NCBI RefSeq assembly: GCF_020253525.1
Contig: NZ_JADCBK010000094.1
Span: forward strand, 1-40,963
Reading direction: 5' to 3'
Source of the DNA: Aquidulcibacter sp.
Lineage (GTDB): Bacteria; Pseudomonadota; Alphaproteobacteria; Caulobacterales; Aquidulcibacteraceae
DNA length: 40,963 bases
Position 1 is the stretch's first letter, and each line of letters starts with the position of its first letter. A model generated the notes under the pieces. That model was not told the DNA's origin. It did not search any database and was given only the letters and a program-made list of their open reading frames with translations. Positions 35,456 to 39,914 of the stretch are shown one piece after another. A program made the translations under genes and the position numbers.

Positions 35456-35959
35456 TTGGCTGCATCGACTTCGATTCCCATAACCATAATGATTGTCGAC
35501 GATAATCAGCATATGCGCGGGATCTTGAAGGAATTGCTGCGCGCGGCTGGCGTCAATGACATCAAGGAGGCCTCCGACCCAGTTGAAGCTTTCGAGTATA
35601 TGAAGGCGAGCTCGGTTGATTTACTTCTTGTCGACTTGGCGATGCCATTGATCGATGGTGTTGAATTCACCAAAATGATCCGCACAAGCGACGATAGTCC
35701 AAACCCCTTCCTGCCCATCATTATGATCACGGGCCACTCAGAGCGTTCCCGTGTGAGTGCAGCACGCGACGCGGGCGTGAATGAGTTTCTGGTAAAGCCC
35801 GTAACCGCCAAAAGTTTGATGGAGCGCCTGACGTTGATCGTCAACAAGCCCCGAAACTTTGTGAAGAGTAAGACTTATTTCGGGCCGGACCGCCGTCGGA
35901 GACCCGATCCGAATTATGGCGGCAGTGAGCGCCGCAAAGACCTGCAAGCCAAAGGCTGA
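35456..35959 (+). CDS. Single-domain response regulator (CheY-like)
   Basis: A 167-residue protein with one receiver domain over residues 12-130. The acidic pocket is in IMIVDDNQ, the phospho-acceptor Asp in LLLVDLAMP, the switch Thr in MITGHS, and the Lys in FLVKPV. A short basic tail (YFGPDRRRRPDPNYGGSERR) replaces an output domain and recurs in alphaproteobacterial receivers. It must act through protein contact or as a phosphate shuttle. The start appears to be TTG at 35456 with GGAG 10 bases upstream, since no ATG precedes the conserved strand except inside it. No histidine kinase is nearby. Confidence 0.9.
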   Translation: MAASTSIPITIMIVDDNQHMRGILKELLRAAGVNDIKEASDPVEAFEYMKASSVDLLLVDLAMPLIDGVEFTKMIRTSDDSPNPFLPIIMITGHSERSRVSAARDAGVNEFLVKPVTAKSLMERLTLIVNKPRNFVKSKTYFGPDRRRRPDPNYGGSERRKDLQAKG

Positions 35960-36144
35960 GACAGGCCGCGTGTGCCTTGCGTGGCAAGGTGAGATTCCCC
36001 TGAAGTTTCGTGACTTAAGAAGACTGGCGAATTCCATGCCAGATTCTTTGAAAAAAGTGCAGCAAAAAAACCTAGATAGAATATTGAAAAATAACAGCTT
36101 TTCGAGGATTTTTTTGAAGCTGTTTTTTGAGGTGAAAAAAACGA

Positions 36145-36172
36145 TTGCGCCACGGAAAAATAGCCTTATACG
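36145..36172 (+). promoter_or_regulatory. Candidate sigma-70-like promoter of ornithine decarboxylase
   Basis: TTGCGC at 36145-36150 and TATACG at 36167-36172, spaced 16 bases, follow an A-rich stretch. Transcription from it would begin near 36179, giving a leader of about 200 bases before the decarboxylase ATG. The call rests on hexamer match and position. Confidence 0.45.
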
Positions 36173-36182
36173 CGCTTCTTCC

Positions 36183-36378
36183 GGCGGACCTGGAAACAGC
36201 ATCCAGTCCACTAACGCCCCCTCGGGCCCAGGCCACACGGCAGCGGCTTCCATCCCCGCTTCCGGCGTAAGCTTCCAAGGGCGGACCTGACTTACATCCG
36301 GGTAAGGATCGGGGTTCCGATTTTTGCCTAGCATGTCCGACTAACGCCGGCCTGGGTTTAGATCATAGGGGGGTCCGC
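36183..36378 (+). ncRNA. Structured leader of ornithine decarboxylase, probable speF-type motif
   Basis: This leader has internal duplication. GGCGGACCTG occurs at 36183-36192 and 36280-36289, and ACTAACGCC occurs at 36210-36218 and 36340-36348, each preceded by GTCC. Both GCGGACC copies are complementary to GGTCCGC at 36372-36378, which abuts the start codon. CCCAGGCC (36227-36234) is complementary to GGCCTGGG (36349-36356). A small hairpin CTTAC/GTAAG at 36291-36306 competes with a terminator-like stem 36308-36325. Alphaproteobacterial ornithine decarboxylase genes are known to carry a conserved RNA (speF motif) in this place; I could not align it, so the identity is inference, but the pairing is directly visible. 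Confidence 0.6.
36304..36325 (+). terminator. Attenuator-like hairpin in the decarboxylase leader
   Basis: AAGGATCGG pairs with CCGATTTTT across a GGTT loop, with 5 Watson-Crick pairs at the core plus G-U extension, ending in five T. It lies 54 bases before the decarboxylase ATG and overlaps the GTAAG arm of the preceding hairpin, so the two folds exclude each other. This suggests conditional termination. Confidence 0.5.
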
Positions 36379-37575
36379 ATGGATCACTTCAATTCTGCGC
36401 ACGACGCTGTCGTGAAGCTGCGTCCGGATGTGCCATTGGCCGTCAACCGTCCGCATCTTGTTCGGGCGGCTGCACGTTGGTTCCTCGATTCATTCGAGGG
36501 TGATATTCTCTATGCCGTGAAGGCAAACCCTTCGCCATGGGTGCTGGAAGCTTTGTGGCGGGAAGGCGTTCGTCATTTTGACGTCGCGTCGGTCAATGAG
36601 TGTAAGCTGGTGCGGGACATGTTTCCAACCGCAACCTTGGCCTTCATGCATCCTGTGAAGAATCGCGCCGCGATTGCGCGTGCTTATCATGAGTTTGGTT
36701 GCCGCATTTTCGCGCTTGATAGCGTGGAAGAGCTGCAAAAGATTCTCGATGAGACCGGCGGGGCCACCGATCTGACGTTTATTGTGCGCTTGCGCGTCAG
36801 CAATGCGGACGCCAGCTTGAAGCTCGAAGCCAAGTTTGGTGCCATGGGCGACGAGGCTGTAACCTTGTTGCGCCAAGCCCGCGCTGCAACGCAAGAAGAT
36901 TTGGGTGTGTCCTTCCATGTGGGCAGCCAATGCATGAACCCAAGTGCGTGGCGCGCAGCCCTTCGCGAAGCTTCCCAATTAATCATCCAAGCTGGTGTCA
37001 CCATTGATGTGGTTGATGTTGGGGGTGGCTTCCCATCCATTTATCCAGGCATGAACCCGCCACCGATGCAGCTCTTCATCGATGAAATCCATCGCGTGTT
37101 TGACGCCATGCCGGTGACGATGAATTGCAAGTTGTGGGCAGAACCCGGTCGCGCGCTTGTGGCAGAAGCAACCTCGATTGTTGTCAAAGTTGATCTGCGC
37201 AAGGGTGATGCGCTTTATATCAATGACGGCTCTTACGGGAACTTGTTTGACGCCACTCATGTTGATTGGGTCTATCCGGTCGCCATGATCCGTCCTGAAG
37301 GTGGTGAGCCGTCTAAACTAGCTGACTTCCGCTTCTATGGGCCAACCTGTGACTCCATGGATGCCGCAAATGGTCCATTCCGTTTGCCTGCCGATATCGG
37401 CGAAGGCGATTGGATCGAGATCGGCATGCTGGGCGCTTATGGTGTTGCCATGGCTACGCGGTTTAATGGCTATGGGGAGAGTGTGGATGTCATCGCAGAA
37501 GATGCGCCCCATGCTTCGATGTTCCCATTGCCAGAGCGCGTCGCCGCGCGTGTCAGCCGGTTTGCAAAAGCCTAG
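36379..37575 (+). CDS. Ornithine decarboxylase (fold-III, PLP-dependent)
   Basis: A 398-residue enzyme of the alanine-racemase-fold decarboxylases that makes putrescine from ornithine; some relatives also take lysine. The PLP lysine is in YAVKANPSPW near residue 52. H of FHVGSQC stacks on PLP, GGGFPSIYPG and AEPGRALVAEA bind the phosphate, and CDSMD near 332 provides the catalytic Cys and Asp of the partner subunit. The GAYGVAMATRFNGYG segment completes the site. The start follows GGGGGG at short spacing inside a structured leader, so translation is probably controlled. A clear terminator follows. It is isolated from other polyamine genes here. Confidence 0.93.
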   Translation: MDHFNSAHDAVVKLRPDVPLAVNRPHLVRAAARWFLDSFEGDILYAVKANPSPWVLEALWREGVRHFDVASVNECKLVRDMFPTATLAFMHPVKNRAAIARAYHEFGCRIFALDSVEELQKILDETGGATDLTFIVRLRVSNADASLKLEAKFGAMGDEAVTLLRQARAATQEDLGVSFHVGSQCMNPSAWRAALREASQLIIQAGVTIDVVDVGGGFPSIYPGMNPPPMQLFIDEIHRVFDAMPVTMNCKLWAEPGRALVAEATSIVVKVDLRKGDALYINDGSYGNLFDATHVDWVYPVAMIRPEGGEPSKLADFRFYGPTCDSMDAANGPFRLPADIGEGDWIEIGMLGAYGVAMATRFNGYGESVDVIAEDAPHASMFPLPERVAARVSRFAKA

Positions 37576-39422: not shown

Positions 39423-39836
39423 CTAAAGCCGGATGACACTTTCGATCTTATGGGCCAAATGGGCATATTGGGGATAGTCTTCACATAGGATTTGCAGGAA
39501 GACATCCCAAGGCGGAATATTGCTCATATAGACGGGGCCTTCGAGGCCCGCATAGGCACCACCGCCAACCCCCGTGTACAGACCGCCGCCTGGACCGGTG
39601 TAAAGGCCGCCGCCGGGGCCAGTATAGAGACCGCCGCCGGGCTCCCGGCTTAGGCCGCCGCCACGCCCGTTTGAAAGGCCCCCGCCGGGCCCCTTATAGA
39701 GCCCGCCGCCCGGACCATCATAAAGCCCGCCGCCTGGTTCCTTAGACCGACCGCCGCCTGGACCTGTGTATAGACCGCCGCCGGGGGCCGTGCTGCGCCC
39801 GCCGCCTGCTCCGACAGATTGATTACGTGGCCACAT
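39423..39836 (-). CDS. Glycine-rich 8-residue-repeat protein
   Basis: A 137-residue protein from the ATG at 39836, with GGAG 8 bases upstream; an earlier in-frame ATG at 39866 is possible. Residues 11-98 are eleven repeats of eight residues with consensus GGGLYTGP (variants GGGRSKEP, GGGLSNGR, GGGAYAGL). The C-terminal ~35 residues form a short helical end (PPWDVFLQILCEDYPQYAHLAHKIESVIRL). There is no signal peptide. Repeats of GGG-x-Y-x-G occur in bacterial proteins of unknown role and may form a beta-flower-like fold, which I infer and cannot show. It converges with ompW. Confidence 0.7.
   Translation of the reverse strand: MWPRNQSVGAGGGRSTAPGGGLYTGPGGGRSKEPGGGLYDGPGGGLYKGPGGGLSNGRGGGLSREPGGGLYTGPGGGLYTGPGGGLYTGVGGGAYAGLEGPVYMSNIPPWDVFLQILCEDYPQYAHLAHKIESVIRL
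39543..39806 (-). repeat. Tandem 24-bp repeats encoding GGGLYTGP
   Basis: Eleven 24-base units in one reading frame code for the glycine-rich octapeptide array. Units 8-10 are nearly identical, suggesting recent unit duplication; outer units diverge. Such arrays change copy number by slippage. Confidence 0.85.
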
Positions 39837-39914
39837 GTCCTGCACTCCAATCGAAGAAAGAAGCAATCTTAGCGCCTAAAGTTTAACTTTGACTGACTCA
39901 AAGACTAAACGAAT

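Follow-up and report, generated by a model that had tools for sequence, protein, structure and literature searches.

A doubled RNA leader upstream of an ornithine decarboxylase gene in Aquidulcibacter, with single-copy relatives in the Caulobacterales, probably hides the start site

Background

The speF leader (Rfam RF00518) is a known element of ornithine decarboxylase (ODC) genes in alphaproteobacteria. In the passages of PMC1273637 that deal with it, in-line probing of speF RNA disclosed no binding of ornithine, putrescine, spermidine and other compounds, which is a warning against assuming a polyamine ligand for such leaders. Besides speF, the only comparable element found in our literature searches is odc1 (uORF-25-1). 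According to the sections of PMC8632094 on this motif, of which 272 examples are published, it is an ODC leader of alphaproteobacteria with the ribosome-binding site sequestered in a stem, it presents two UUG starts two nucleotides apart and an upstream ORF (uORF) of 11 residues with no evidence of length variation, and mutations in it altered reporter expression in E. coli. In the gammaproteobacterial speF leader of Salmonella, too, the ribosome-binding site of the ODC gene is sequestered; a short upstream ORF, orf34, takes part, and the leader works through arginine codons, Rho and RNase G (PMC6386406, in the parts that treat this leader). No leader like the one described below is named in the portions consulted of PMC3766115, on Caulobacterales RNA motifs, or of PMC4117421, on Caulobacter crescentus transcripts, where the word ornithine is absent.

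An earlier note, made from the letters of one stretch of DNA, had described a duplicated leader in front of an ODC gene, with an attenuator-like hairpin, and, pointing to the speF motif of such genes, had read it as a polyamine- or ornithine-responsive leader with two competing start-blocking arms. We report here a computational analysis of that leader and of its relatives. The window is the whole stretch analysed, 40,963 nt from Aquidulcibacter sp. (contig NZ_JADCBK010000094.1); the nearest named relative is Aquidulcibacter paucihalophilus, of the order Caulobacterales, with an ODC identity of 99%.

Results

The features of the locus are collected in Table 1. At E<=1e-30 the product of 36379-37575 matched three PDB sequences, all of them lysine/ornithine decarboxylases (5gjm, 5gjo and 2plj), and the NCBIfam matches to it lay below the curated cut-offs. 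The repeated blocks are where the earlier note had placed them: GGCGGACCTG occurs at 36183-36192 and again at 36280-36289, and GTCC-ACTAACGCC at 36206-36218 has a second copy with one extra G, GTCC-G-ACTAACGCC, at 36335-36348. The complementarities that it listed are likewise present, namely that of GCGGACC (36184-36190 and 36281-36287) to GGTCCGC (36372-36378), which adjoins the ATG at 36379, and that of CCCAGGCC (36227-36234) to GGCCTGGG (36349-36356). The stretch 36175-36385 folds better than 200/200 shuffles (z -2.80), and the leader blocks, which a DNA search found throughout the window's family, are conserved there far beyond chance. A regulatory leader in front of the ODC gene is supported. 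The leader probably begins near the 5' end of the mRNA, because a TTTACA-like hexamer stands 37-40 nt before it in 89/95 relatives examined, all outside the window's genus; the promoter-like site at 36145, for which a sigma-70 consensus scan gave no site at 36145-36171, has the same spacing of 37 nt. Elsewhere in the window, the open frame at 39423-39866 on the minus strand, listed as a glycine-rich repeat protein, may be spurious.

Table 1. Features of the ODC leader region, in coordinates of the window
Feature	Position	Strand	Remarks
Promoter-like TTGCGC-15-TTATAC	36145..36171	+	Weak, by eye; begins 37 nt upstream of CGGCGGA
P1 5' strand CCGGC, pairs 36346-36350	36181..36185	+	Nearly invariant in all leader forms
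Repeat copy 1, GGC-GGAC..GTCC-ACTAAC-GCC	36183..36218	+	Contains P2
P2	36186-36189 with 36206-36209	+	Arms conserved, little variation
P3 5' strand GCCC, pairs GGGC 36279-36282	36216..36219	+	Covariation; overlaps anti-Shine-Dalgarno CCCCC 36217-36221
CCCAGGCC, complement of GGCCTGGG 36349-36356	36227..36234	+	No variation in either arm among the 22 sequences of A1
CCGGCGTAAGCTTCC, degenerate counterpart of the anti-start arm CCGGCGTAAGCTCCC of other genera	36262..36276	+	Poor pairing with the start in the window's genus
Repeat copy 2, GGC-GGAC..GTCC-G-ACTAAC-GCC	36280..36348	+	Contains P4 (36283-36286 with 36335-36338)
Apical stem of P4, the T-tailed stem of the earlier note	36300..36329 (36300-36312 with 36317-36329)	+	13 bp, genus-specific
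GCCGGCCTGGG, P1 3' strand plus conserved tail	36346..36356	+	GCCGG-NY-TGGGTT also conserved in single-copy relatives, few exceptions
Shine-Dalgarno GGGGGG plus TCCGC	36368..36378	+	Predicted paired with 36217-36221 and 36184-36189, probabilities 0.69-0.82
Fold-III ornithine/lysine decarboxylase family gene (398 aa)	36379..37575	+	Pfam PF02784 and PF00278

The leader is a real, conserved RNA control element that is absent from the Rfam copy searched. The speF family, which the earlier note had brought up, shares with it the downstream gene family and the bacterial class. However, RF00518 gave no match in 35950-36500 even at E<=10, the only two Rfam matches found there at that threshold were upstream of the leader and far below their cut-offs, and the whole window had no match at the Rfam gathering threshold. 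Among 61 relatives RF00518 yielded none above its cut-off and a single one below it, outside the leader. In the class at large it was found in 6/190 sampled genomes at E<=0.001 (four above the cut-off), and in alignments judged by eye these speF-like leaders look unrelated to that of the window. That the leader is a member of the speF family is, on this evidence, scarcely credible. As a separate observation, in all six speF-like loci (L095-L100) a same-strand match to the Rfam ar45 sRNA stops 7-8 nt short of the speF leader; the two may belong to one ODC leader transcript, with ar45 as its 5' part.

Resemblance to odc1 is closer. The window leader also lies upstream of an ornithine decarboxylase in alphaproteobacteria and its ribosome-binding site is predicted to be in a stem, the arms of which do not covary. 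It differs in that its one start is ATG, position -5 holds no start codon, and the 5' domain is duplicated and looks different; it is not filed as odc1 because it has neither the second start nor the uORF. A uORF like that of Salmonella was not seen in it either. The single-copy leaders of other Caulobacterales, described below, are like odc1 in that a first start codon precedes the main one by 2 nt and a uORF overlaps the gene, but their first start is GTG, their uORF is mostly of 29 or 31 codons and their 5' domain is another-looking one. The odc1 start layout itself (two TTG codons, 11-codon uORF) was found in three sphingomonad ODC leaders (L050, L051 and L054), with a 5' domain that by eye looks unlike the Caulobacterales leader and no Rfam match at E<=0.5. 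For eight Caulobacterales leader loci searched at that threshold the only match was one to tmRNA, weak at 19.8 bits against a cut-off of 50, which overlaps the L039 leader. Two further observations concern other alphaproteobacterial ODC genes. The three sphingomonad leaders contain a stretch, GGGGACTTCCAA, that is the complement of TTGGGGGTCCC at the Shine-Dalgarno (SD). Many of the Rhodospirillales-like genes (L053, L055, L056, L058, L060, L061, L062, L064-L066, L086, L091 and L092) share other conserved stretches upstream, which by eye include a hairpin of the GCCGC-YGAAA-GCGGC type.

Within the window's family, the covariance model of the tandem leader (R1) matched 53/60 listed genomes with E 3e-16 or better, and in the 30 loci L001-L030 an ODC gene followed in every case; 13 genomes of family f3 were matched weakly (E 0.001-0.009). 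A single-copy form was found in front of the ODC genes of loci that are named Caulobacteraceae and Phenylobacterium. Its model, R2, matched 108/299 Caulobacterales genomes at E<=0.05, and of 70 loci fetched from 110 R2 matches, 67 had ODC downstream, the exceptions being L187, L191 and L204 (E 0.0037 or worse). R2 matched 4/289 genomes across the class, two of them of the same order and two weakly and without ODC (L133 and L134, E 0.0038 and 0.0065, listed only as of the same class). Model R3, which covers the tail, start and first codons of the single-copy leader, matched 107/299 genomes of the order, 105 of them at E 1e-8 or better; in 385 genomes from across the class its matches were confined to three genomes of the same order plus a weak one (E 0.04). 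The leader of the Caulobacterales is therefore without a clear match elsewhere in the class. Single-copy leaders range from about 60 nt (family f4) up to forms with large inserts (f2), and one member of the window's own family, L193, is single-copy. From the distribution of the three models, these lengths and L193, we infer that the tandem is the derived form, which would have arisen within one family by duplication of the P2-ACUAAC unit of an order-wide single-copy leader. The alignments comprised 22 (A1) and 25 (A2) fetched tandem loci, and 62 distinct of 75 single-copy loci (A5). Two genomes (G027 and G459; L023, L165, L166 and L167) each carry two tandem leaders, both before ODC genes. In most of the reduced f4 leaders (L172-L190), GGAGG followed after 5-6 nt by ATG was seen by eye in the P1 loop, where it may open another short uORF, about 7 to 12 codons long.

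The two copies of the tandem do not simply repeat one another as folding units. The 3' end of copy 1 pairs with the 5' start of copy 2 in helix P3, as is shown by the two changing together: copy 1 ends GCCC, GTACCC, GCGCCC, ACCTAAA and ACTTTGG are met by copy 2 starts GGGC, GGGTGC, GGGTGC, TTTAGGT and CCAAGGT, respectively. Over 15 distinct strand pairs the mean pairing energy was -8.15 kcal/mol for own strands vs -5.10 for swapped ones, and 0/50,000 permutations were as good as the own pairs (1/50,000 with the 11 pairs that are distinct at 5 nt), a statistic that ignores sequence kinship. This test used 68/69 loci (L169 left out), and it counted distinct pairs since some places had been fetched twice. 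The cross-copy helix is possible in 14/15 distinct pairs; two independent local hairpins, one per copy, were also considered and rejected, since of the 15 pairs 8 would allow a local 3-bp closing of copy 1 and 10 one of copy 2. P1 (36181-36185 with 36346-36350) would close the whole tandem domain. In A1 (22 sequences) P1 is nearly invariant and CCCAGGCC/GGCCTGGG, a pair absent from L039-type leaders, wholly so, leaving no variation for covariation. Conserved structure with covariation is thus found in P3 and, within the genus, in the tip of P4, the other helices being invariant or not above shuffles. Tandem riboswitch aptamers also place two like RNA units in one leader. Those units fold separately, whereas the units of the window share helices, P1 and P3 joining the copies. 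It is this doubled, helix-swapped architecture that is new: our literature searches found no description of a tandem ODC leader layout, in agreement with the suggestion of an undescribed variant. Two other candidates were discarded. The mini-ORF ATG-TCC-GAC-TAA of copy 2, considered as a leader peptide, has no ATG in L011, L012 and L016, and a loop-GACCC/tail-GGGUU switch, proposed by eye, was dropped because GACCC is missing from f4 leaders.

In the predicted ensemble of the window leader, GGGGG (36368-36372) is paired with CCCCC (36217-36221) and GTCCGC (36373-36378) with GCGGAC (36184-36189), the latter with a probability of about 0.7. The start-blocking fold suggested earlier is accordingly the one preferred by the thermodynamic model, in which the SD has an unpaired probability of 0.02. 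Enforcing the four-helix core raised this to 0.18 and that of the AUG from 0.39 to 0.54. Core and blocked folds are mutually exclusive, because P3 (36216-36219) and P1 use bases of the blocking arms. In the window the core is predicted to cost about 13 kcal/mol relative to the blocked fold and leaves the SD just 0.18 unpaired, so that it would need help from a ligand or from folding during transcription.

Two competing start-blocking arms did not hold up as a general device. On the covariation test that the earlier note had itself set as refuting, neither GCGGACC/GGTCCGC nor CCCAGGCC/GGCCTGGG covaries: the former has one partner that is unconserved outside the genus, and the latter is invariant in both arms. 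GGTCCGC was present in 8/9 loci of the genus and, with one extra base, in 2/27 other distinct start regions of the family (29 distinct). Other genera mostly carry GCCGG just before the start (23/29 distinct start regions), which is complementary to the CCGGCGUAAGCUCCC of the module; the pairing of CCGGCGUAAGCUCCC with the SD/start stretch (such as GGGAGCU-GCCGG-AUG) reached z<-2 against shuffles in 23/29 distinct regions of the family, in a test with 64/65 loci (L114 left out). In the window's genus the pairing of the degenerate counterpart CCGGCGTAAGCTTCC with the start is poor and no better than in shuffles, at -11.4 and -6.3 kcal/mol (z -0.3 and 0.6). When arms were swapped between species, own combinations were not significantly better for the SD with either the CCCCC arm (16882/20,000) or the CCGGCGUAAGCUCCC arm (1644/20,000; 4639/20,000 in an earlier version), and for this reason the blocked folds of the tandem family are plausible rather than proven. 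The start region also sets this family apart: the window has a single ATG, with no start codon at -5 and no uORF, and among 29 distinct start regions only that of L030 (GTG-CG-TTG) has a start at -5. In this family the dual start is almost completely gone, and the doubled domain stands in its place. L030 itself combines a tandem leader, the dual start and, by eye, an apparent 11-codon uORF, and is possibly an intermediate form.

In the single-copy leaders, the tail GCCGG-NY-UGGGUU, the SD CAGGGG and the start codon are able to fold into one hairpin with an arm in the coding region that starts six codons downstream of the main start (CCC CTG GAC CTG GTC CGN). The cells of its two helix parts are paired in 94% and 95%, and those of the start-codon stem, which had z<-1 in 47/62 leaders, in 77%; overall pairing was 90% vs 18-53% in slid versions. 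Covariation in this hairpin amounted to two pairs changed on both sides, a number reached in 233/500 shuffles. In 71 distinct genes five of the hairpin codons are nearly invariant (69/70, 67/67, 71/71, 70/71 and 70/70) and many other codons vary. The overlapping uORF, which mostly encodes PWTWS at this place, offers another possible explanation for the invariance.

This uORF is opened, out of frame with the ODC gene that it overlaps, by a start codon 5 nt before the main start in 74/75 single-copy loci (two of them counted twice, as L131 = L207 and L132 = L208) or 69/70 distinct genes. Its stop is under selection. In the 70 distinct genes of the 75 loci, the uORF is exactly 31 codons long in 46, vs a mean of 2.2 and a maximum of 7 in 1000 synonymous reshuffles, and 29 or 31 codons long in 57 vs 8.4 expected, a class picked after the lengths were known; these statistics ignore sequence kinship. 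The 31-codon form was found in 34/41 genes of f3, 6/18 of f4, 5/10 of f2 and the 1/1 single-copy gene of f1. In all 46 its stop is made by GTA, CTA, ATA or TTA before G, codons with a combined share of about 1.4%. The remaining uORFs are of 2, 11 (L198), 17, 23 or 48 codons, the last being that of L201, which lacks the -5 start codon. A role of the RNA is also favoured, because GGACCTGGTCCG is kept in L199 and L202, with a 2-codon uORF, and in L201. In L203, also with a 2-codon uORF, two of the GGACCTGGTCCG sites are changed, one with a matching change in the SD arm.

Discussion

The leader probably hides the ODC start site from the ribosome, and we consider it likely that it is a cis-acting translational start-occlusion switch on the ODC mRNA, in which a four-helix core is set against a blocked fold. 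By default, the SD and the bases before the AUG would be paired with an upstream arm, giving low initiation; in the window's genus, CCCCC and GCGGAC would be the blocking arms, closed by CCCAGGCC/GGCCTGGG. In the alternative fold P1 would close the domain, P2 and P4 would be GGAC/GTCC hairpins, and P3 would connect copy 1, at its end, with the beginning of copy 2, the two ACUAAC linkers lending the core a twofold look. Formation of the core would release the start, as P1 and P3 take up bases of the blocking arms. In the order-wide single-copy leader the start can be blocked by the arm in the coding region, and a second start codon and the overlapping uORF are also present, as in odc1. We infer the switch and its direction, and ornithine or a polyamine would be candidates only for any ligand.

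Other explanations start from parts of the same evidence. Transcription attenuation, in which the hairpin at 36291-36306 and the T-tailed stem that the earlier note gave at 36308-36325 would compete to stop transcription, takes up the fact that a short stem followed by T exists in the window, and it is highly improbable. The two elements as given do not overlap and so do not exclude one another; the hairpin clashes only with the longer stem 36300-36312/36317-36329, where the T-run is itself paired. Within the genus, L007 and L009 have retained the stem without its T-run, and L007-L009 have lost the CTTAC/GTAAG hairpin that would compete with it. In most other genera the stem is missing; a terminator scan did not list it, and a G+C stem with an unpaired, conserved U-run, as expected of an intrinsic attenuator, was not found here. 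The T-tailed stem is part of a non-terminator hairpin. Another reading makes the leader a landing site for a regulatory protein or a small RNA, or a 5' stabiliser, rather than a metabolite sensor, with the partner setting start occlusion. Very little sequence change is seen across families in P1, the CUAAC linkers and UGGGUU, which fits a recognition site, and for the unrelated speF RNA no binding of pathway metabolites was observed (PMC1273637, in its account of that motif); the covariation of P3, however, shows that folding matters. We lean against this explanation but give it real weight.

For the single-copy leaders, control may be sought in the overlapping uORF alone, that is, in a choice between two starts 2 nt apart, with the RNA structure secondary and control lost in the tandem family. 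The near-universal -5 start and the strong excess of 31-codon uORFs, ended at rare NTA codons, speak for it. Yet few parts are as well conserved as the upstream P1/tail block, GGACCTGGTCCG persists where the uORF has 2 codons or its start is missing, and the tandem family retains the upstream RNA without a uORF, so that we judge uORF-only control unlikely. A bolder extension of the start-occlusion switch, put forward tentatively, is that the ODC mRNAs of Caulobacterales carry an uncatalogued metabolite-sensing RNA that would choose between starts and that would have been rebuilt in the window's family by loss of the dual start and duplication of the sensor. The sensor would then be a pseudo-symmetric four-helix junction, perhaps for two ligands, with P3 competing with the anti-SD, and the choice would lie between starts two nucleotides apart, the stop of the out-of-frame uORF being maintained by rare ODC codons.

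Conclusions

ODC leaders of alphaproteobacteria have resisted explanation, and no ligand is given for speF or odc1 in the parts of PMC1273637 and PMC8632094 that describe them. The present analysis adds an order-wide set of leaders, including those of Caulobacter relatives, with single-copy, reduced and doubled variants and a lineage that has lost the dual start. These natural variants make the sensed signal and the role of the overlapping uORF testable in laboratory strains.
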